From: Roseomonas sp.
GTDB lineage: Bacteria > Pseudomonadota > Alphaproteobacteria > Acetobacterales > Acetobacteraceae
Assembly: GCA_020249435.1 (NCBI GenBank)
Contig: JADCFQ010000007.1
Coordinates: forward strand, 248,001 to 312,000
Direction: 5' to 3'
Length of the DNA: 64,000 bases
Below the pieces are notes generated by a model, which saw nothing but the letters and a program-made list of their open reading frames with translations, did no database searches and was not told the origin of the DNA. Shown here in pieces: positions 1-41,523 of the stretch. A program made the translations under genes and the position numbers. Each line of letters begins with the position of its first letter. Position 1 is the stretch's first letter.

Positions 1-615
1 CGTATCCGTGTAAAGCTCTGGCTTCTTGCCGCTGGTGCAGATAAAGCCATCACCCGCACGCCCGGCATATTTCGCAACCATGGCGCCGGCAGCCGCCACA
101 TAAATCGGTACGGGCGTCGCTGGACGATCATAGATTGTCGCGTGTTCGGTGCGGTAATACTGACCCTCAAAGCTCACGCGTTCTTCGGTCCAAAGCTTGC
201 GCATCAATTGCACGGCTTCACGCATGCGGGCGAAGCGTTCTTTGAATTCTGGCCAGGGTTGGCCTGTGGAAGGCACCTCATTCAACCCCTCACCAGTGCC
301 GATGCCAAGAATGACGCGGCCCGGAAACATCGCGCCCAAAGTGCCGAAAGCCTGCGCCACAATGGAAGGGTGGTAGCGAAAGGTTGGCGTCAGCACGCTG
401 GTGCCCATCACAAGCCTTTGCGTGCGCGCCCCAAGCGCACCAAGCCACACCAGCGAATTCGGCGCGTGGCCGCCCGTGTGTTTCCAGGGCTGGAAATGGT
501 CCGAGATGAAGCAGCTATCGAAGCCCATCTCCTCGGCCAATACGCCAAATTCCAGCAATTGTGCCGGCGCGAATTGTTCGGCGGATGCCTTATAGCCCAG
601 CTTCAACATGGCCAT
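1..615 (-). CDS. F420-dependent glucose-6-phosphate dehydrogenase-like LLM oxidoreductase (3' part outside window)
   Basis: Only the first 205 codons are present; the gene runs off the left edge. The protein starts at an ATG that overlaps the stop of the upstream gene (TGATG), so it is probably translationally coupled. It is a luciferase-like TIM barrel and reads very like mycobacterial Fgd1, which oxidises glucose-6-phosphate with cofactor F420. The start is [14 protein letters not shown] and the block SDHFQPW puts His at 40 and Trp at 44. Later come [11 protein letters not shown] and the GIGTGE block with Glu at 109. In Fgd1 these are the catalytic His, Trp and Glu at the same numbers. The family is established for actinobacteria; in this alphaproteobacterium the substrate and F420 use are inferred from residue conservation. 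Confidence 0.8.
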
Positions 616-1475
616 CACGTATCCGCGAGTGCCGCAAGCATCGCATCCCGATGCGCGACATCGCCATCTTCCGTCACTGGCTGGATGCAAACATGCGTGG
701 CACCCGCTGCAAAATGTGCGCGCAGGCCTGCCTTCACGGTCGTGGCATCGCCATGCAGCACCATCGCATCAATGAAGCGATCACTGCCGCCATTGGCGAG
801 CTCCGCTTCACTAAAACCAAGCCGCAGCCAATTATTCACGTAATTTGGCAACACCATATAGCGCGATAATTCGCGCCGCCCGAGGGCGCGTGCGCGCACC
901 GGATCGGTTTCAATGCACACCTTCTGTTCCACCGCCAGCACCTTGCCCGTGCCAAGAATAGCCGCGGCCTGGGCAGTATGTTCCGGTGTTACGTTGTAAG
1001 GCACAGCGCCATCCGCAGCGCCGCCGGAAAGTGCCAGCATTTTCGGCCCAAGCGCTGCCAGCAGCACTGGCCCTTCCAATACATCACCGCCCGCCTTGCG
1101 CAACCCTTCCAAATAGCCGCGCATCGCGGGGATGGGCTTTTCGTAGCGATGCCCGCGCAAGCCTTCCACCATCGGGATATGGCTGACGCCAAGCCCAAGC
1201 GCGAAGCGCCCGCCATGCAGCGCATTCAGCGTCGCGAGGCCCCGGCGCGCGGTGAAGGCATCACGCGCATAAATATTCGCAATCGAGCTGCCAATAATGA
1301 GCTTCCGACTATTCGCCAGCAAAAACCCCGCCAGCGCCATGGATTCATAACCGCGCGATTCCGGATACCAGAAGCTGCCATAGCCGTGGTCTTCCACGCG
1401 GTTCAGCAGCGCGCGCAAGGCCGCCGCATCCAGCCGATCCGTGGAACACCAAACGCCCAAACGACCGAATTGCAT
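615..1475 (-). CDS. LLM class F420-dependent oxidoreductase (MSMEG_4141-like)
   Basis: This is a luciferase-like monooxygenase fold protein of 286 residues. The start chosen is MQFGRLGVW, preceded by GGAAAGGAAG; longer forms add a poorly conserved leader. Recognisable blocks are [10 protein letters not shown], a strand reading [14 protein letters not shown], and [13 protein letters not shown], which fit the actinobacterial-type family usually labelled probable F420-dependent oxidoreductase, MSMEG_4141 family (TIGR03620). It lies 28 bases after the PEP mutase-like gene and overlaps the Fgd-like gene by one base, so the two oxidoreductases are likely co-expressed. The substrate cannot be read from the sequence, and the F420 preference is inferred from family membership. 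Confidence 0.75.
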
Positions 1476-31512: not shown

Positions 31513-32142
31513 ATGGAAGACGCCCTGCCCCCGATTGCCGGGAATCATCAAAACGCGCCCATTTCCCGCCTGATTGCGGAGGTGGTGGAACGCTGCCCCG
31601 GTGAACGTATCACCCTTGGCGAAATGGCCGAGGCTTTCGGCGACCGTGCTTTTGGCTTGCTGATCCTGATGCTCTGCCTGCCAGGGCTTTTGCCGGGCAT
31701 GGCTTCCATCTTTGGCACGCCGATGTTGATCCTTGGCATCCAGATGGGGCTTGGCTTTCGCAAGCCGAAGCTGCCGGGTTTTCTGGCGCGGCAATCGCTG
31801 AAGCGTACCGATGTGATGCGGCTTTCGACCGGGTCTTCCAAATTGCTCTCTCGCATTGAAACCTGGGTGAAGCCGCGCCCCGGCCCCTTTACCAGCAATG
31901 CGGCGGATAAGGTGGTGGGCTGGCTCACGGCCTATGCCGCGCTGATGCTGATCCTGCCCGGCCCCGGCACCAATGGCCCGCCGGCATTTGGTACCATCGT
32001 CATGTCGCTGGGTGTCGTGGAAAATGACAGCAAGGTGGTCGGGCTTGGCATTCTATTCACCATCCTCGGCAATCTTTTTGCGACCGCGGTACTGGTGGCG
32101 ATTGCCTGGTTCGGTATTGAGGCGCTGGGTTACGTTTTTTGA
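31513..32142 (+). CDS. ExoD-like exopolysaccharide synthesis family membrane protein
   Basis: This is a 209-residue membrane protein of the ExoD family, named for a gene needed for exopolysaccharide production and alkaline tolerance in rhizobia. The N-terminal cytosolic part ISRLIAEVVERCPGERITLG precedes membrane segments at FGLLILMLCLPGLLPGMASI, TAYAALMLILPGPGTNGPPA and LFATAVLVAIAWFGIEAL. The biochemical role is unknown. It stands alone, with the cobalamin riboswitch about 50 bases downstream on the same strand. Confidence 0.85.
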   Translation: MEDALPPIAGNHQNAPISRLIAEVVERCPGERITLGEMAEAFGDRAFGLLILMLCLPGLLPGMASIFGTPMLILGIQMGLGFRKPKLPGFLARQSLKRTDVMRLSTGSSKLLSRIETWVKPRPGPFTSNAADKVVGWLTAYAALMLILPGPGTNGPPAFGTIVMSLGVVENDSKVVGLGILFTILGNLFATAVLVAIAWFGIEALGYVF

Positions 32143-32309
32143 TTTGCATTTTGCTGGACAGATCAACCTGGGCTGACTAGCCTTCCCCCATGCTTCGGTG
32201 GCCCGCAAGGGCTGAAACGGGAATGCGTGACACGGTGAAATCCACCGCCAATCCGCAGCTGCCCCCGCAACTGTAGGCGACTATATCTGGCCCATATGCC
32301 ATTGCATGT

Positions 32310-32394
32310 GCGTCTGATCGGCGGAGGTGGAACACCGAAGCCGTGAATCAGCCGCTCAAAAAAGATGATGAGAGCCGCGAAGCGGTTTTCATCA
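32310..32394 (+). repeat. structured tandem repeat, copy 1 (inside riboswitch)
   Basis: This 85-base unit folds into two hairpins. The first (32314-32351) has nested helices CTGAT/ATCAG, CGGC/GCCG and GGTG/CACC with GAA loops; the second (32366-32394) has TGATGA/TCATCA and CCGC/GCGG. The unit is repeated next to it almost exactly. Confidence 0.95.
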
Positions 32395-32480
32395 GCGTCT
32401 GATCGGCGGAGGTGGAACACCGAAGCCGTGAATCAGCCGCTCAAAAAAGGATGATGAGAGCCGCGCAGCGGATGTCATCA
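32395..32480 (+). repeat. structured tandem repeat, copy 2 (inside riboswitch)
   Basis: This second copy is 86 bases. It differs from copy 1 only by one extra G after the A-run, a GAA to GCA change in the second hairpin's loop, and two changes in its internal loop. All differences are at unpaired positions, so both hairpins are kept. Confidence 0.95.
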
Positions 32481-32700
32481 TTGATGCGAGAAGGCGGGCA
32501 GAGCGGGGGTAACCCCAGGTCGCGAGCCAGGAGACCGGCCGTCGCATAGTTGTCTCGCGCGTATCGGGCGGGGTGCACCGATGCAACGGACCAAAGCTGT
32601 GCGGGCACGCCCGCGCATCTCCGTCTGCGAACAGCGTAGGAAATGCTCCAGGGCCGCAAGGCTTTGGGGTGCGTGATACCTATGCTCGGAGGAATGCCGG

Positions 32701-34695
32701 ATGAAACACCGGATTCTCGTATTACTGGCGCTTGCCCCACTTGCCCCGGCCTGGGCGCAAACGGCAAGCATCCCTGAAACCATTGTGACAGCCACAAGGA
32801 TACCCACGCCGCAGGAACGCCTGCCGGCAGCGACCACGGTGATTGATCGGCAGATCATCGAAGAACGCGGCTATGTCACGCTGGCCGATGCGCTGGTGAG
32901 CGTGCCGGGCTTCAACATCATACCAAGCGGCGGCATGGGTCAGGTGACATCGGGCTTCATGCGCGGCACCAATTCGAATCACGTATTGGTCTTGCGTGAT
33001 GGCGTGCCGATGAACGATGCCAGCCACCCAAGCGGCGCCTTTAATTTCGGCAATACGCTTTTGGGGGATATTGAACGCATTGAGGTGGTGCGCGGCCCGG
33101 TTTCCGCGATTTACGGCACCTCGGCGATTGGGGGCGTGATCAATCTGATCACACGCCGCGCGCCCGCCGATCGGCAAGCGCAACCTTATGGGGAACTGGC
33201 CGGCGGCACCAATTACACCGCGCGCGGTATCGCCGGTGTTGCGGGTACTATCGGTAATACGGATTACGGCGTGACGGGGCAAAGCCTTTCGACACGCGGT
33301 TCAAACGCGGTGGCACCGCGTTTCTATAATAATCAAGGCGAACGCGATGGCTTCCGATCCGCGGTGATCACCGTGCGCGGTGGCGTCAATCTTGGTGAAA
33401 CCGCGCCGGCCAATGTGCTTGGCATGACGCGGCTGGATGGCTTGGTGACCATGCGGGAGAACCGCTTCGGCCTTGATAGCATGCCGAATGATGATCCAAA
33501 TTACAGCGGCGATGATCGCAACTGGATGGGGTTTCTCCGCAGCGCCACCGAATTATTCGGCGGCGACTGGACCACGGGCCTGACGCTATCGGCCACCGAA
33601 GATCGGCGGCGCTACACCAATTGGCGCGATAGCCTGAACAGCAGCACCGCCGATGATCTCTATCGTGGTCGGCGCGAAAGGCTTGCCTGGGACAATACTG
33701 TCAGGCTCGCGGATTTTGGGATCCTCACCGCCAATAATCTTGTCTTTGGTGCAGGGTCCGAAAACGAAAGTGCTTTCACCAAGTCGGTTCTTGGGTTCAG
33801 TTTTGGCTCAATTAGCCAGGATTTGGACAAATCGCAGCGCAGCGCCTTTGGCTATATCGGCACGCAGCATCGGCTTTGGGATCGGCTGGATGTGACCACC
33901 GCGCTCCGCCAGGACGCGCCGGATGGCTTTGATGGCGCGACCACTTGGCGCCTCGGTGGTGTGCTGAGCCTGCCGGAGATCGCATCGCGCGTCACGGCGT
34001 CTGGGGGCACCGCCTATCGAGCCCCGGCCCTTTACGAACGCTATGGCGTATTAACATCAAGTCTCAGCCGTTTCCGGGGTAATCCCGATCTGAGACCGGA
34101 ACATTCTACCTCCTGGGAGGCAGGCATCGAAACCGATATTGGTGCCGGTTTCACTATTTCAGCACTTTATTTCGAAAGTAGGATCCGTGACCTAATCCAA
34201 GGAAAGAGCATTTCTCCCGGCAACTCGACCAATGAGAACATTGCCCGCGCACATATCCAGGGCGGCGAATTCGGTTTGACTTGGCGCGCTTCCGACAGTT
34301 TTTCGACGCGCGCTGCCTGGACAATTCAGGAGACCCGTAATGAGGCAAATGGCGCTGCCCTCGAACGTCGGCCGCGCAATAGCGCGAGCCTATCGCCACG
34401 CATCGCGCCTAAGGTGGATTGGGTGGATGTGCTGAATGCGCGGCTGATCATTGCCCCCGAATTCATCTATATGGGCGATCATCGCGATTATCTTAATCGC
34501 GATAATGGATCGGGCGCGGGCCTCGGGCAAAGCGATGGCGGCTTCGTCTTCAACATGACGGCCTCCCTCCCCATCACGCAGCAAATCACTGCCTTCATCG
34601 AAGCGCGCAATCTTGGCAATCGGCGCTACGAACCCGCCAATGGTTTTGTCATTCCAGGCCGCAGCGCCATTCTTGGCCTGCGCGGCGTTTTCTGA
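32701..34695 (+). CDS. btuB: TonB-dependent outer-membrane receptor, BtuB-like
   Basis: This is an outer-membrane beta-barrel importer of 664 residues, predicted to carry cobalamin because of the riboswitch. It has a signal peptide (MKHRILVLLALAPLAPAWAQ), a TonB box near PETIVTATRIP, and a plug domain with LADALVSVPGFNIIP. IERIEVVRGPVSAIYGTSAI then GGVINLITRR complete the plug. The barrel ends in a C-terminal aromatic residue (RGVF), as needed for BAM assembly. The ATG follows CGGAGGAATGCCGG. The partner TonB and an adenosyltransferase gene lie just downstream on the opposite strand. Confidence 0.92.
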   Translation: MKHRILVLLALAPLAPAWAQTASIPETIVTATRIPTPQERLPAATTVIDRQIIEERGYVTLADALVSVPGFNIIPSGGMGQVTSGFMRGTNSNHVLVLRDGVPMNDASHPSGAFNFGNTLLGDIERIEVVRGPVSAIYGTSAIGGVINLITRRAPADRQAQPYGELAGGTNYTARGIAGVAGTIGNTDYGVTGQSLSTRGSNAVAPRFYNNQGERDGFRSAVITVRGGVNLGETAPANVLGMTRLDGLVTMRENRFGLDSMPNDDPNYSGDDRNWMGFLRSATELFGGDWTTGLTLSATEDRRRYTNWRDSLNSSTADDLYRGRRERLAWDNTVRLADFGILTANNLVFGAGSENESAFTKSVLGFSFGSISQDLDKSQRSAFGYIGTQHRLWDRLDVTTALRQDAPDGFDGATTWRLGGVLSLPEIASRVTASGGTAYRAPALYERYGVLTSSLSRFRGNPDLRPEHSTSWEAGIETDIGAGFTISALYFESRIRDLIQGKSISPGNSTNENIARAHIQGGEFGLTWRASDSFSTRAAWTIQETRNEANGAALERRPRNSASLSPRIAPKVDWVDVLNARLIIAPEFIYMGDHRDYLNRDNGSGAGLGQSDGGFVFNMTASLPITQQITAFIEARNLGNRRYEPANGFVIPGRSAILGLRGVF

Positions 34696-34716: not shown

Positions 34717-35283
34717 TCACCCCCTCGTCGCCCCCGGCACCCACAGCACATCGCCCGCGCCATTGCCATTCAGCCGCCGCGCGAGCACGAAAAGATGATC
34801 CGATAGCCGGTTCAAATAGCGGATCACGGCGGGGTTCACTTCCTCCTCTGCCGCCAGTGCTACAACAAGCCGTTCCGCGCGCCGTACCACAGTGCGCGCG
34901 ACATGCGCTGCTGCCGCACCCGGCGCGCCACCTGGCAGCACAAAGGATTTCAGCGCGGGCATTTGCCCATTCATCGCTGATAACTCCGCTTCCAGCCGCG
35001 CGCATTGCGTATCCGCCACGCGGAGCCTTGCACCCGCTTCGCCTGGCACGCAAAGATCAGCGCCGATATCGAAAAGATCATTCTGAATGCGCGCCAGCAT
35101 GGCATCGGCTTCCGCGTCTTCGCGCGTAGAAAGGCGCAGCACGCCAAGCGCGGCATTCGCTTCATCCACCGTGCCATAGGCTTCCACGCGCAGCGCATCC
35201 TTGCGCACCCGCGCGCCATCACCGAGCGAGGTTTCCCCCTGATCCCCACCGCGCGTGGTGATCACATCAAGCTTGACCATCAT
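34717..35283 (-). CDS. cob(I)alamin adenosyltransferase, PduO type
   Basis: This 188-residue enzyme converts corrinoid and ATP to adenosylcobalamin. The N-terminal TTRGGDQGETSL is the ATP-binding TRxGDxGxT element, and RVEAYGTVDEANAALGVLRL and FVLPGGAPGAAAAHVARTVV match the PduO family. RYLNRLSDHLFVLARRLN is the conserved C-terminal helix. It has two consecutive ATG codons; AGGGA is 4-7 bases upstream. It converges with the BtuB-like gene and is in line with tonB, supporting a local B12 import and use module. Confidence 0.95.
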   Translation of the reverse strand: MMVKLDVITTRGGDQGETSLGDGARVRKDALRVEAYGTVDEANAALGVLRLSTREDAEADAMLARIQNDLFDIGADLCVPGEAGARLRVADTQCARLEAELSAMNGQMPALKSFVLPGGAPGAAAAHVARTVVRRAERLVVALAAEEEVNPAVIRYLNRLSDHLFVLARRLNGNGAGDVLWVPGATRG

Positions 35284-35311: not shown

Positions 35312-36148
35312 TCAGCGCCGTGCGGTTTCAAGGCGGAAATGCACGGCGGTGGTGATGCTGCCCGCCACGGGTATTCCCGCGCGCTGCGCCGGGCGAAAGC
35401 GCCAATCGCGTACTGTTTGCACTGCAGCCGCATCGAGCGCGCTGAAGCCCGAGCTTTCCAGAATGCGCACATCTGCAACGCGTCCTGTCGGGTCCACCAA
35501 TAATTCAACGCGCACCAAGCCCTCTTCACCGCGCCGGCGGCTGGCTTCCGGATAATTGGGAGGACGATTGCGCGCTGCGTCCAGCGCTTCTGGCGGTGCG
35601 CTGCGGCCTTCCAGGGTGAAGCTTTCCATCCCTTGCAAAGCAGCATTCAACCGCACAGGCGCGGGCGGCGCGGTTTGTGGGGGGCTTTGTCGCGGCGGGG
35701 CGCGACGCTCTGGCGGGGTTGGCGCCTCGGTCACTTGCCGGGGCTGTTCCGGTTCCGGCAAGGGTTCCGGCGCCGGTGGTGCTTCCGCGATTTGCGGCGG
35801 TGTTTCCTCAACCGGTGGGGGCGGCAGCATCGGTGCCGCAAGCGCCGAAGGAGGCGATAGCACGGGCGGCGGTGCTGCGATTACTGGCGGCGGCGACGGT
35901 GCGGCAACCATCGGCGGTGGTGGCGGCACATCAGGGGCGGGCGGCACGGCCGCCACTTCGGGCGGGGCGGCAGGGGATTCCACCTCACCAATATCCGGTG
36001 CGCCCTCATAAATCACCGCAACGCCCTGGGCTTCCGCCTGGTCCGCCGAAAATTCCTCAATCATCGGCCATAGGATCAAAAGCGCCGCAACCAGCCCATG
36101 CAGCGCCAGCGACGCGCCAAGCCCAAAACCGCGCGGTGCGGCCTTCAC
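35312..36148 (-). CDS. tonB: TonB family energy transducer
   Basis: This inner-membrane-anchored protein of 278 residues passes proton-motive energy to outer-membrane receptors. It starts at a GTG, with the membrane anchor LGASLALHGLVAALLILWPM. A long periplasmic Pro-rich stretch follows (about 60-180, many PP and EP pairs), then the TonB C-terminal domain with VRVELLVDPTGRVADVRILE and AAVQTVRDWRFRPAQRAG. It overlaps the CDF gene (GTGA). No exbBD lies here. With the nearby btuB-like receptor a dedicated role in B12 import is likely but not proven. Confidence 0.92.
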   Translation of the reverse strand: MKAAPRGFGLGASLALHGLVAALLILWPMIEEFSADQAEAQGVAVIYEGAPDIGEVESPAAPPEVAAVPPAPDVPPPPPMVAAPSPPPVIAAPPPVLSPPSALAAPMLPPPPVEETPPQIAEAPPAPEPLPEPEQPRQVTEAPTPPERRAPPRQSPPQTAPPAPVRLNAALQGMESFTLEGRSAPPEALDAARNRPPNYPEASRRRGEEGLVRVELLVDPTGRVADVRILESSGFSALDAAAVQTVRDWRFRPAQRAGIPVAGSITTAVHFRLETARR

Positions 36149-37070: not shown

Positions 37071-40000
37071 CTAGACCGAGAAGTACTTGGCCCGTGGGTG
37101 ATGCAGCACAATGGCGCTGGTGGATTGTTCGGGATGGAGCTGCCATTCATCACTGAGCGAAACGCCAATACGTTCCGCATCCAGCAATCGCAGCAGCCCT
37201 TCCTGATCTTCCAGCTTCGGGCAGGCCGGATAGCCAAAGGAATAACGCCCACCGCGATAGCCCTGTTGGAGCATTTTTTCGATATCGCGATCATCCTCGG
37301 CAGCGAAGCCCAATTCAGCGCGGATGCGCTTATGGACATATTCCGCCAGCGCTTCGGCCATTTCGACCGAAAGCCCATGCAGATAGAGGTAATCCTGGTA
37401 GCGATTATCCTCAAACCAATCGCGCGCGATATCGGATGCCTTTTGGCCAACAGTGACCACTTGCAGGCCGATCACATCGCGCGCATCGGGGCCATCATCC
37501 ACATCGCGCACGAAATCGGCGATACAATCGCCATCTTCCTTGGGTTGGCGCGGCATATTGAAGCGGCAGACTTCGGTCGCGCCATCTTCGGCGAACAGGA
37601 TCAGATCATTGCCTTGACCGGCACATTTCCAATAGCCATAGATCGCTTGCGGCTTCAGGATGTTTTGGTCTTCCGCCAAGGCGAGCATGCGCTTCAGCAC
37701 CGGGCGCAATTCCTGCTTGGCCCAGCCGAGGAAATCTTCCAGTGATCGCCCCGCCTTCCGGAAACCCCATTGGAATTGATAGAGGCTCCGTTCATTGATG
37801 AAGGGCACCAGCGCCTTGGGGGCGGCTTCCAGCACGCGGGCACCCCAGAAGGGCGGGGTTGGTACCGCGCTTTGCGCGGCAACACGGCGGCGGCGGGTTT
37901 GCGCGTATTTCACATCAACGGGCGCAAAGCCGCGCGGGTCCGCCGTGCCAAGGGTGCGCTTTTCATTGCGCGCCTTGCCGGAACGCTTGGTTTGCAGCGC
38001 CGCCAGGTAATCATCAAAGCCATTGCCCATGACCTTGTCCATCAAATGCAGGCCATCAAAGGCATCGCGCGCATAGGCAACGCGGCCCGAAGCATAGGCG
38101 CGCACGCAATCATCTTCGACGTAATTCCGCGTGAGTGCGGCGCCACCCAGCAGCACGGGAATATCCACGCCCTGGCGCGACATTTCTTCCAAATTCTCGC
38201 GCATCACGACGGTTGATTTGACCAGCAAGCCAGACATGCCAATCGCATTGGCCTTATGTTCCCGCGCCGCCGCGACAATTTCCGTCAGCGGCACCTTGAT
38301 GCCGAGATTGACCACGCGATAGCCATTATTGGTCAGGATGATATCCACCAGATTCTTGCCGATATCATGCACATCGCCCTTCACGGTGCCGAGCACGATG
38401 GTGCCTTTTTCCTGGCCGGCCACCCTTTCCATATAGGGTTCCAGATAGGCGACGGCGGATTTCATGGTCTCGGCCGATTGCAGCACGAAGGGAAGCTGCA
38501 TCTTGCCGGCGCCGAACAGCTCCCCCACCACCTTCATGCCATCCAGCAGAATGTCATTAATGATGGAAAGCGGCGCGATACCCTTGGAAAGCGCATCGGC
38601 CAATTCATCATCCAGCCCCTTGCGGTCGCCATCAATGATGCGGTCCTTGAGCCGCCCTTCGACGGTTTCCGCGCGCTTCTTCGCCGTGGCATCGGCAGCC
38701 TTGCGGCCCGCGAAAAGCTCCAGCATTTTTTGCAGAGGGTCATAGCCTTCGGTGCGGCGATCATAGATCAAATCTTCCGCAACCTTCACCTCCTCAGCGG
38801 GGATTTGATGCAAGGGCTTGATCTTGGAGACATGCACAATCGCCCCCGTCATGCCGGCCTTCACGGCGAGGTCCAGGAATACGCTGTTCAGCACATGGCG
38901 CGCGGCAGGGTTGAGCCCGAAGGAGATATTGGAAAGCCCCAGAATGATCTGAATATCGGGAAATGCATCCCGGATCATGCGAATGCCTTCAAGCGTCCAA
39001 AGGCCAAGCTTGCGGTCATCCTCATTGCCTGTGGCCACCGTGAAGGTCAGCGGGTCAATCATCAGGTCTGATTGCGGCAGACCGTGCTTGTCGCAGGCAA
39101 ATTCCACCAGGCGGCGGGCAATGCGTAGCTTATCTTCGGCGGTCTTCGCCATGCCCACTTCATCAATGGTCAGCGCAATCACCGCGGCGCCGAATTTGCG
39201 CGCGAGCAACATACGGTCTTCGGCGGCCCTCTCGCCTTCTTCGAAATTGATCGAATTGATGATGGGCTTGCCGCCATGCAGCTTGAGCGCCGCTTCAATC
39301 ACCGGCGTTTCGGTGGAATCGATCACCAGCGGGCCATTCACGCTGCTGGTGAAGCGGCGGATCACCTCGCTCATTTCCGCCATTTCATCGCGCCCGACAA
39401 AGGCGGTGCAGATATCAAGGCTGTTTGAGCCCTCGGCCATTTGCTCACGGCCCATGGCAACGCAGCCATCCCAATCGCCCGCCGCCTGGCGTTCGCGCCA
39501 AGCCTTGGATCCATTGGCATTGCAGCGCTCTCCGATCGAGAAATAGGAGTTTTCCTGACGCAGCGCCGTCGCGGTGTAGAGCGACGCCACCGATGGCACC
39601 CAATAAAACTTGCGCTTGATTGGCGCCGGGCGCTGCGCGGCACCGCCGAGCTTGCGCAGCATGGCATCAAGTGCGGTGATATGCGGTGTGGAGGTACCGC
39701 AGCAGCCGCCGATCAAATTCAAGCCATCTTCAACAACAAAGCGTTCCATCCAGGCGGCGAGTTCTTCCGCGCCCAGCGGGTAATGAGTTTTGCCATCCAC
39801 CAATTCCGGCAGGCCGGCATTGGGCTGGCAGGAAATCAACCCCGGCCAGTTCTGCGACAGCCAGCGCACATGTTCCGCCATTTCCTGCGGACCTGTTGCG
39901 CAATTGAGCCCCATCAGCGGCACATCCAGCGCATGCACAATTGTGGTCGCGGCAGCGATATCGGGGCCGACAAGCAAGGTGCCGGTGGTTTCCACTGTCA

Positions 40001-40571
40001 CCTGCACGAAAATCGGAATTGTGGACCCCGCCGCCTTGCGCGCAATTTTCGCGGCATTCACGGCGGCCTTGATAAACAGCGTGTCCTGATTGGTTTCTGT
40101 CAGCAGCGCATCCGCGCCACCGGCAATCAGGCCGCGGCATTGTTCCACCAGCGCGGCTTCCAGCGCGTCATAGGTGATATTGCCAAGGCTTGGCAGCTTG
40201 GTGCCTGGGCCGATATCGCCCACCACCCAACGATGCCGGCCATCGGCGAAACCCTCAGCCGCCTCGCGCGCCAATTCAACGGAAAGCTTGTTGATCTCAA
40301 AGGCGCGATCTTCCAGTTCAAACTCGGCCAAAGTCACCGGCGAACCGCCGAAGCTATTCGTCAGCACCATATCCGCGCCCGCTTCGTAATAGCCGCGATG
40401 GATATCGCGCACGATATCGGGGCGCGAAAGGTTCAAAACTTCGGTGCAGTTTTCCTTGCCCCAGTAATCGCGATCCACTTCCAGGGCCATGGCCTGCACG
40501 CGGCTGCCCATGCCGCCATCACAGAGCAAAACGCGGTCACGAAGGGCGTCGAGGAGATGCGGGCGCGCCAT
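37071..40571 (-). CDS. metH: methionine synthase, B12-dependent
   Basis: This enzyme transfers the methyl group of methyl-THF via cobalamin to homocysteine, with 1,166 residues. The four modules are in order. The homocysteine/zinc domain has GLNCATGPQEMAEHV and LIGGCCGTSTPHI. The pterin domain (about 360-640) has NSYFSIGERCNANGSKAW. The B12 domain has KGDVHDIGKNLVDIILTNNG, which holds the lower-ligand His of D-x-H-x-x-G, and the reactivation domain has YSFGYPACPKLEDQ. The start chosen at 40571 begins MARPHLLDALRDRVLLCDGG; the longer frame adds a non-conserved leader. It follows the ArsR/methyltransferase gene by 10 bases and is probably co-transcribed with it. Confidence 0.97.
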   Translation of the reverse strand: MARPHLLDALRDRVLLCDGGMGSRVQAMALEVDRDYWGKENCTEVLNLSRPDIVRDIHRGYYEAGADMVLTNSFGGSPVTLAEFELEDRAFEINKLSVELAREAAEGFADGRHRWVVGDIGPGTKLPSLGNITYDALEAALVEQCRGLIAGGADALLTETNQDTLFIKAAVNAAKIARKAAGSTIPIFVQVTVETTGTLLVGPDIAAATTIVHALDVPLMGLNCATGPQEMAEHVRWLSQNWPGLISCQPNAGLPELVDGKTHYPLGAEELAAWMERFVVEDGLNLIGGCCGTSTPHITALDAMLRKLGGAAQRPAPIKRKFYWVPSVASLYTATALRQENSYFSIGERCNANGSKAWRERQAAGDWDGCVAMGREQMAEGSNSLDICTAFVGRDEMAEMSEVIRRFTSSVNGPLVIDSTETPVIEAALKLHGGKPIINSINFEEGERAAEDRMLLARKFGAAVIALTIDEVGMAKTAEDKLRIARRLVEFACDKHGLPQSDLMIDPLTFTVATGNEDDRKLGLWTLEGIRMIRDAFPDIQIILGLSNISFGLNPAARHVLNSVFLDLAVKAGMTGAIVHVSKIKPLHQIPAEEVKVAEDLIYDRRTEGYDPLQKMLELFAGRKAADATAKKRAETVEGRLKDRIIDGDRKGLDDELADALSKGIAPLSIINDILLDGMKVVGELFGAGKMQLPFVLQSAETMKSAVAYLEPYMERVAGQEKGTIVLGTVKGDVHDIGKNLVDIILTNNGYRVVNLGIKVPLTEIVAAAREHKANAIGMSGLLVKSTVVMRENLEEMSRQGVDIPVLLGGAALTRNYVEDDCVRAYASGRVAYARDAFDGLHLMDKVMGNGFDDYLAALQTKRSGKARNEKRTLGTADPRGFAPVDVKYAQTRRRRVAAQSAVPTPPFWGARVLEAAPKALVPFINERSLYQFQWGFRKAGRSLEDFLGWAKQELRPVLKRMLALAEDQNILKPQAIYGYWKCAGQGNDLILFAEDGATEVCRFNMPRQPKEDGDCIADFVRDVDDGPDARDVIGLQVVTVGQKASDIARDWFEDNRYQDYLYLHGLSVEMAEALAEYVHKRIRAELGFAAEDDRDIEKMLQQGYRGGRYSFGYPACPKLEDQEGLLRLLDAERIGVSLSDEWQLHPEQSTSAIVLHHPRAKYFSV

Positions 40572-40581
40572 GGGGAAACCT

Positions 40582-41523
40582 TCAGGAAACGGGGGTGGAA
40601 ACAGAAATTGGCAAGCGTTCTGCCGACCAAAGCTTGAGCGAAAGATCAGCAGGAATGCTGCCAACACGCGGCGCGGTGCAGCCCGCGCCGCCAAGCCAAC
40701 CGGCCATCGCGGCATCATCAAAACCAGGCCAGCGATGGGCGTAGCGGGTCAGCAGATCGGCGCGGTCATGCGGCGCCAGATCAAGGATCAGCAAGCGCCC
40801 GCCGGGGCGCAATACCCGCGCGGCTTCAGCCAAGGCGGCGGCGGGGTCTTCCGCGTAATGCAACACCATGTGCAAGGTGACCGCATCAAAACCCGCATCC
40901 GGCAGGGGCAGCCGATACATATCCGCTTGCCGCACCGAAATATGGCTGAGGCCGCGTTCCGTCAGGCGGCTGCGCGCCAGCGCCAGCATCTCGCGTGAGG
41001 CATCAACGCCAAGCCCTTCATCAATGCGCGGCGCCAAGCGTTCCAGAACACCGCCCGTGCCGCAGCCGATATCAAGCAAGCGGCCAAGGCGCGGCGCCGG
41101 CAGGGCATGCAAAAGCGCGGTTTCAATCGCTTCGGTCGGCAGGCCAAGGGCGCGGGTTTCATCCCAATCGGCGCCATGGCTGCGGAAACTGTCGGAAGCA
41201 ATGCGCGCCCGCTCCGCCGCCAGCCGCGCTGCGGCGCGCCGATCAGCGGCCAGCAGGGGGTCCGATTCGGGCAGGCGGGCCAGGATATGGCGGGCGAGGT
41301 CAGCATCCGGCGCCATCTGAAACCAGGCATTGGCGCCTTCGGGCGTGCGGGTCAGCAGGCCGGCTTCGACCAGAAGCTTCAAATGGCGGGAGAGCCGTGG
41401 CTGGGATTGGCCCAGAATCGCCACCAATTCCGTGACGCACCAGGCGCCACGGGCGCAAAGCGCCAGTAGCCTGAGGCGTGTCGGCTCCGCCGCGCCGCGC
41501 AATTGGGACAGAACATCCTGCAT
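40582..41523 (-). CDS. ArsR-family regulator fused to a SAM-dependent methyltransferase domain
   Basis: This 313-residue protein has an N-terminal ArsR winged helix (about 1-85, with ELVAILGQSQPRLSRHLKLL as the recognition helix). A class I methyltransferase domain follows, with SAM motif LLDIGCGTGGVLERLAP near 145 and ARVLRPGGRLLILDLAP. The architecture and position directly before metH match SahR-type regulators, which sense S-adenosylhomocysteine and control SAH recycling and methionine synthesis genes. A 9-bp palindrome lies just before its ATG. Whether the methyltransferase part is catalytic or only a ligand sensor cannot be seen. Confidence 0.87.
   Translation of the reverse strand: MQDVLSQLRGAAEPTRLRLLALCARGAWCVTELVAILGQSQPRLSRHLKLLVEAGLLTRTPEGANAWFQMAPDADLARHILARLPESDPLLAADRRAAARLAAERARIASDSFRSHGADWDETRALGLPTEAIETALLHALPAPRLGRLLDIGCGTGGVLERLAPRIDEGLGVDASREMLALARSRLTERGLSHISVRQADMYRLPLPDAGFDAVTLHMVLHYAEDPAAALAEAARVLRPGGRLLILDLAPHDRADLLTRYAHRWPGFDDAAMAGWLGGAGCTAPRVGSIPADLSLKLWSAERLPISVSTPVS

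Follow-up and report, generated by a model that had tools for sequence, protein, structure and literature searches.

The cobalamin riboswitch predicted upstream of a BtuB-like receptor gene in Roseomonas sp. contains two adjacent copies of a structured repeat, which raises the question of how this repeat came to lie inside an aptamer and whether it serves the riboswitch. The locus lies in a 64,000 nt stretch of contig JADCFQ010000007.1 (hereafter, the window), and all its features are on the plus strand. The two copies are 85 nt (copy 1, 32310-32394) and 86 nt long (copy 2, 32395-32480), with borders that agree with those of an original prediction made from the sequence alone. As also proposed there, the insert that they form is structured and belongs to a variable peripheral arm. 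It lies between a GCCATTG motif (32298-32304), found in relatives too, and GAGAAGGC (32488-32495), the 5′ and 3′ sides of the arm by direct reading. A search with the Rfam Cobalamin model (RF00174) gave a match of 37.1 bits at 32183-32370 (gathering score, 31.5). The 3′ half of this match was threaded into copy 1, though the sequence that we take to be the B12 box, GAGCCAGGAGACCGGCC, sits at 32524-32540. Direct reading of the locus identified the core motifs CCCCCGCAACTGT and CAACTGT as well as this box. With a score above gathering, a conserved core and a B12 box, the locus is a predicted cobalamin riboswitch, as originally assigned, which would bind a cobalamin and control the gene. The aptamer with its insert, delimited by the RF00174 match and by motif reading, extends over 32183-32540, through the end of the B12 box. 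The B12 box is an element mentioned in the accessible text of PMC11260477, which describes, for a different B12 riboswitch, a P6 extension containing P7, P8, P10 and P11.

The gene downstream of the riboswitch (32701-34695, plus strand) codes for a TonB-dependent receptor with the Pfam domains TonB_dep_Rec_b-barrel and Plug. The best NCBIfam model for its product was TonB-B12, at 255.3 bits, which is under the curated cut-off of 599.7; the BtuB-like assignment of the original prediction is therefore retained as a likeness. Beyond it, on the minus strand, lie genes for a PduO-type cobalamin adenosyltransferase (34717-35283; PF01923, recognised by NCBIfam as well) and for a TonB C-terminal protein (35312-36148; PF03544), and a long open reading frame (37071-40721) that by eye resembles a cobalamin-dependent methionine synthase.

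Each copy consists of a hairpin of 46 nt (A, a REP-like unit), an A-rich linker of 8-9 nt and a second hairpin of 31 nt (B). Fold prediction and a covariance model placed hairpin A at 32310-32355 in copy 1 and at 32395-32440 in copy 2. The linkers, defined by direct reading and alignment, occupy 32356-32363 and 32441-32449, the latter with one extra G. Hairpin B was predicted at 32364-32394 as a single continuous stem, and at 32450-32480 as a stem mismatched mid-way. The predicted fold of hairpin A combines nested helices (GCG / CTGAT / CGGC / GGTG) with a GAA loop and a 3x3 internal loop of GGA/GAA. Folding z-scores were -5.95 for 32310-32395 and -2.40 for 32396-32480, stretches offset by one base from the borders of the copies, and both A hairpins scored 80.3 bits each in a covariance model trained on rows that included the own sequence. 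These values make the fold improbable by chance. The copies differ by the linker G, one loop base (A/C) and two bases in hairpin B (columns 80 and 82 of the alignment). The original prediction had all four differences at unpaired positions; this holds for the linker G and the loop base, but the two B bases, mismatched in copy 2, form G.U pairs in copy 1, so that hairpin B of copy 1 is one 13-bp stem. Similarly, 3x3 internal loops had been proposed throughout. They are predicted for hairpin A of both copies but for hairpin B of neither: that of copy 1 has no internal loop, and that of copy 2 has two single mismatches flanking one pair. Folding of the whole leader predicted an alternative in which copy 1 pairs with copy 2. 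A consensus scan detected one promoter-like minus-strand site within copy 2 (32478-32451), which agrees with the consensus at 9 of 12 letters; 0.2 such sites were expected.

Hairpin A is a dispersed, often tandem, REP-like repeat family. DNA searches found 10 matches in the own genome, the riboswitch locus included, and matches in 12 of 39 genomes, counting the own. A covariance model built from 23 units (R1), whose copy numbers per genome are lower bounds, raised this to at least 15 matches in the own genome, and identified the hairpin in 33 of the 35 genomes of the genus and, at an E threshold of 1e-4, in 153 of the 397 family genomes sampled, spread over 46 of 102 genera, the own genome being included in each count. 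A pattern scan of named genomes yielded at least 107 stretches with A. Among the matches listed, the taxa were Roseomonas, Falsiroseomonas, Roseococcus, Crenalkalicoccus, Asaia-labelled MAGs and records assigned to Acetobacteraceae, Rhodospirillales or Alphaproteobacteria; under current NCBI taxonomy, Roseomonas, Roseococcus and Crenalkalicoccus belong to Roseomonadaceae, order Acetobacterales. The suggestion in the original prediction that a dispersed repeat might have landed in the riboswitch is thus supported by these searches. It had also reasoned that a riboswitch-specific role would be unsupported if related genomes lacked the repeats at this site but had them scattered everywhere else. 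The repeat is indeed scattered, but nine other genomes keep the insert at this exact site with its pairing largely intact. Within the window, the covariance model detected strong A units in the riboswitch only, and no match to the repeat family at gathering score was found in Rfam. The 20 loci with dispersed A copies produced a single Rfam match, a riboswitch in genome G042 that is described below, and no other Rfam RNA. A divergent A-like unit was seen at linked places in seven metH loci of relatives (e.g. L218, L219, L227).

The matches listed formed 112 arrays of 1-6 A units, 74 of them single and 38 with 2-6 units in tandem; riboswitch inserts accounted for six of 110 distinct arrays. Sites connected through similar flanks differed in their number of tandem A units (e.g. 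3, 1, 5, 6, 3). With the riboswitch inserts removed, the first A unit of the matches listed was preceded by TA or CA in 68 of 103 arrays. Again among the matches listed, a TGATC..GATCA hairpin followed A within 60 nt in 19 of the 97 arrays scored without the riboswitch rows and preceded it in none of them, and a perfect stem of at least 9 followed A in 19 of 103 arrays and preceded it in two (riboswitch inserts kept), while mean folding energy did not differ significantly between the two sides of A (p 0.075). In 26 of 141 distinct arrays, orthologs included, a B-type hairpin was located 16-21 nt beyond the paired portion of A. This makes A-linker-B a recurrent directional composite, present in a minority of arrays. 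By eye, the outer stems of these 26 hairpins were site-specific and in most cases complementary. Dispersed B hairpins such as those of L002, L006 and L162 show a TGATCC..GGATCA core with an outer stem that varies by site yet remains complementary; in L162, the left arm of A is contained within the B stem. A run of at least three A residues separated A from B at 23 of 26 sites, a count that includes the AAA ending unit A and some orthologous sites. At each of the six distinct dispersed loci that the DNA search gave in the own genome (L002, L003, L005, L006, L007 and L008), the element lies at the stop codon of an open reading frame, next to it or overlapping it, and by eye the frame resembles a genuine gene, which makes the riboswitch an unusual location for it. 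Mobilisation of the RAYT type (IS200/IS605) was considered and rejected, since a PF01797 (Y1_Tnp) search that was positive in 5 of 14 control genomes gave no match in the own genome.

RF00174 matched 40 places in 34 of the 35 genomes of the genus, and 39 of these riboswitch sites could be parsed (G040b was left out). An insert in this arm was present in 10 genomes: eight have one unit, and two, the own genome (G000) and a relative (G046), have two. The carriers fall within an 18-genome subclade in which the remaining eight sites are empty, and no partial insert was found among these 18 genomes. A 19th genome, G002, groups with the subclade by metH and has no riboswitch match. Of 28 riboswitches with neither form of the element, 26 have 7-16 nt between the flanking motifs and two have a different motif. 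The span from CCCCxGCAACTGT to GCCAGGAGACC was 100-125 nt without the element, 190-193 nt with one unit, 275-279 nt with two, and 206 nt in G042. The last, from a different species, has no insert in this arm; it carries a reversed element (B-linker-A) in the hairpin that comes next within that aptamer (riboswitch at 522-831, minus strand, of L063, G042:C144:1-2900), and its A unit scored 63.9 bits in the covariance model. RF00174 scores were 37.1 and 37.2 bits in the two-copy genomes, 86-92.2 bits in those with one copy and 98.8-104.1 bits in the empty subclade relatives. Comparison of empty and filled sites by eye for MITE features showed the loop to be too variable to fix a target-site duplication.

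The internal junction between the copies, GCGGTTTTCATCAGCGTCTGATC, is common to G000 and G046, so that one duplication is the simplest reading. This duplication included both hairpins, unlike the other tandem arrays inspected, in which A alone is repeated. In G046 (L062), and in no other carrier, the frame opened by the hairpin B ATG runs through the riboswitch into btuB. Among the loci from named genomes, five contained riboswitch inserts (G007, G014, G043, G046 and G047), all of them carriers already counted, whose riboswitches and flanks are identical to those of Roseomonas sp. MAGs (G014, G046 and G047), a Rhodospirillales MAG (G007) and an Alphaproteobacteria MAG (G043); a loose rescan returned further stretches of 78-258 nt besides these five. 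Of two exact patterns directed at further riboswitch insertions in the 397 family genomes, the first matched 12 genomes, three with a nearby B12 box (the known carriers G000, G014 and G047), and the second matched none. Both patterns are narrow, and G042 lies outside the 397-genome sample, so other forms of the insert may escape them.

The distribution of the insert does not follow the flanking genes. Placing all carriers in one clade was rejected by AU tests on three flanking markers: the metH tree (p-AU 1.6e-6; 21 rows, with G002 among the non-carriers), the btuB side (p-AU 3.3e-8; 19 rows, G022 being dropped for its short sequence) and the upstream side (p-AU 1.2e-3; 19 rows, G039 being dropped for the same reason). 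These smaller row sets replaced a first tree that contained a very long row, G001b. A single origin with strict vertical descent was accordingly discarded. These trees are mutually discordant, with many weak branches and an uneven base composition, and two rows of the upstream tree are long. Since the trees are discordant and many forks weak, local recombination seems likely, although with these same weaknesses recombination, loss and repeated gain look alike. The flank tctggcccatat was present in all 10 carriers and in none of the eight empty subclade relatives, of which six read tctgcccata and then a or g, and two tctggcccgaat; a carrier-only flank is in line with local recombination. One insertion, later spread or lost through recombination, fits these data best, and several losses or gains are possible.

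The mean p-distance of the insert among the 10 carriers (those with two units being represented by the last) was 0.078. For comparison, btuB distances were 0.290 at third positions and 0.055 at first and second positions, and those of noncoding segments were 0.198 for the upstream intergenic region, 0.126 for the 5′ part of the aptamer and 0.067 for the leader past the B12 box. Within the insert, paired positions differed by 0.029 and unpaired positions by 0.155, and 4 of 52 paired columns were variable against 17 of 35 unpaired ones (Fisher, 2e-5). The predicted structure was kept in 99.4% of cells over the 12 units of the 10 carriers, in keeping with the claim of the original prediction that the fold is conserved; as judged from these alignments, this conservation is based on few changes. 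Covariation is weak evidence for the fold. In the 12-unit riboswitch set, one pair had changed on both sides (in 4 of the 12 units), a count reached by 467 of 500 shuffles, while the covariation score was reached by 5 of 500; in another alignment test, three pairs had changed on both sides (411 of 500 shuffles) and no shuffle in 500 reached the covariation score. Pairing at the base of the arm is also kept across variants, e.g. GCAT/ATGC and GCGT/ACGC, as seen by eye. Linked copies outside the riboswitch differed less at paired than at unpaired positions in 10 of 12 clusters, with one tie and one reverse, a comparison biased to well-kept copies because these were found through their similarity to A. 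Since these copies show the same pattern, the constraint need not be specific to the riboswitch; it may come from the repeat family, at the RNA or DNA level, or from a need to stay folded at the tip of the arm.

Given the observed dispersed family, the empty and filled sites, the common duplication junction and the conserved pairing, we think it probable that a REP-like element inserted into a tolerant apical loop, was kept as a self-folding passenger and was tandem-duplicated once. A dispersed A-linker-B element would have entered the apical loop of the peripheral arm in an ancestor within the subclade, presumably as a mobile unit, and the whole element would then have been duplicated in tandem in the lineage common to G000 and G046. 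Its persistence could be explained by self-folding at the arm tip, which would spare the ligand-binding core, the insert being roughly neutral for B12 sensing. Its pairing might be preserved through the disturbance that an unfolded insert would cause to the aptamer, or through a general hairpin constraint on the family. Judging by sequence, the insert most likely contributes nothing specific to B12 sensing. The suggestion of the original prediction that it tunes the ligand response lacks support, since 8 of 18 relatives are empty, the flanking trees are discordant and G042 carries the element reversed in another arm. What speaks against a mere passenger is that the insert is more conserved than nearby sequence that is presumably freer, and that no partial forms were seen in the 18 subclade genomes; this could mean selection at this site. 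The lack of a PF01797 match in the own genome likewise weighs against the explanation.

Such selection is central to the main rival reading, namely that the A-B hairpins were co-opted as a working part of the leader, acting on mRNA stability, on RNase processing or, by slowing co-transcriptional folding, on the width of the decision window. The structure retained in 10 genomes, the almost invariant paired positions, the all-or-none presence among the 18 subclade genomes and the pairing maintained at the arm base would all agree with this. Against it stand the eight close relatives that do without the insert, a presence discordant with the flanking-gene trees, the paired-below-unpaired pattern found equally in 10 of 12 clusters outside the riboswitch, and the reversed element in a different arm of G042. 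On balance, co-option appears unlikely, if still credible. The stronger proposal, that the element was recruited more than once as a plug-in of B12 riboswitches (10 genomes, and another arm and orientation in one), with its fold selected and 0, 1 or 2 copies tuning the leader, is rather doubtful. The position of the six dispersed own-genome loci at the ends of open reading frames, together with the A-run between A and B, might instead point to a terminator or 3′-end hairpin function brought into the leader, where an antisense B followed by the T-run of the linker could stop antisense transcription. A consensus scan of both strands of 32140-32720 found no terminator-like site, and B in the sense strand has no T-run after it; a terminator in the insert was rejected on that scan, and the function as a whole is very improbable. 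A small upstream reading frame, comparable to that of the Mycobacterium tuberculosis metE riboswitch, is the least credible of these readings and hardly tenable. Hairpin B does contain ATGATG in all 10 carriers, but the frames in the single-copy and own-genome units are 20, 20, 20, 29, 32, 33, 75, 75, 75 and 109 codons long, with no common end, and those of both G046 units stay open through 300 codons, into btuB in frame. It was these widely differing lengths that led to its rejection.

This locus is a clear example of a riboswitch aptamer that houses a dispersed hairpin repeat: genomes differ in having 0, 1 or 2 copies at a single site, and the element recurs in a second arm of another species' riboswitch (G042). 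Together, these relatives are ready-made variants for studying how far a riboswitch arm tolerates foreign structure, and the natural 0, 1 and 2 copy variants also make co-option directly testable. Further, the inserts cause the standard covariance model to mis-thread or under-score the riboswitch (37 bits here versus ∼100 in empty relatives). Comparable riboswitches may therefore be overlooked, and annotation pipelines would assign wrong ends and low scores to those that bear inserts.

Searches of the open-access literature, mostly without full text, for this repeat family and for repeats inside riboswitches, cobalamin or other, produced nothing that was recognised as this element; as far as these searches go, the family and its nesting inside a riboswitch are new. 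Several known systems are related in part. In Streptococcus pneumoniae, a BOX element lies between two T-box riboswitches that its authors inferred to remain functional (PMC3049150, as far as accessible). Both cases involve a dispersed hairpin repeat in a riboswitch 5′ leader, compound in the BOX case; BOX, however, sits between two riboswitches, whereas the present element is nested in one aptamer at the tip of an arm. Heterocyst-forming cyanobacteria have STRR repeats within their gene for RNase P RNA (Vioque 1997, from the title as cited in PMC2858038); these are likewise short tandem repeats within a structured-RNA gene, but the repeats are different and the RNA is a ribozyme instead of a riboswitch. 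The metE B12 riboswitch of M. tuberculosis has a uORF in its P9-P10 extension, the effect of which was tested (accessible text of PMC11260477). It resembles the present riboswitch in having an enlarged peripheral region; its extension is coding, with no repeat family described in that text, while the present insert is a repeat element.

For the repeat itself, CGTC-tagged REPs are the nearest described kind. According to the accessible text of Di Nocera 2013 (PMC3733652), these are short palindromes of 20-40 bp, dispersed and mostly 3′ of coding regions, that are frequent in alpha-Proteobacteria and absent from Acetobacteraceae, and for which no dedicated transposase was found. Their hallmarks there are an unpaired CGTC tag, an 8-9 bp stem that starts with AT, a 4-5 nt loop and, mostly, a CCA tail. 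Unit A is similarly short, palindromic and dispersed, and many of its copies begin G-CGTC. In contrast to CGTC REPs, it is 46-47 nt long with internal loops, above the 20-40 bp range, the GCG of its GCGTC is paired, the next stem is CTGAT with no AT start, and it has no CCA tail; nor does that description of CGTC REPs, in the part accessible, contain the directional A-linker-B layout. Compared with this published description, unit A thus differs in tag, stem and tail and was not assigned to the CGTC superfamily. In the wider sense it is REP-like, with its at least 15 R1 matches in the own genome and its place at an ORF stop codon in six of the six dispersed loci from the DNA search of that genome.
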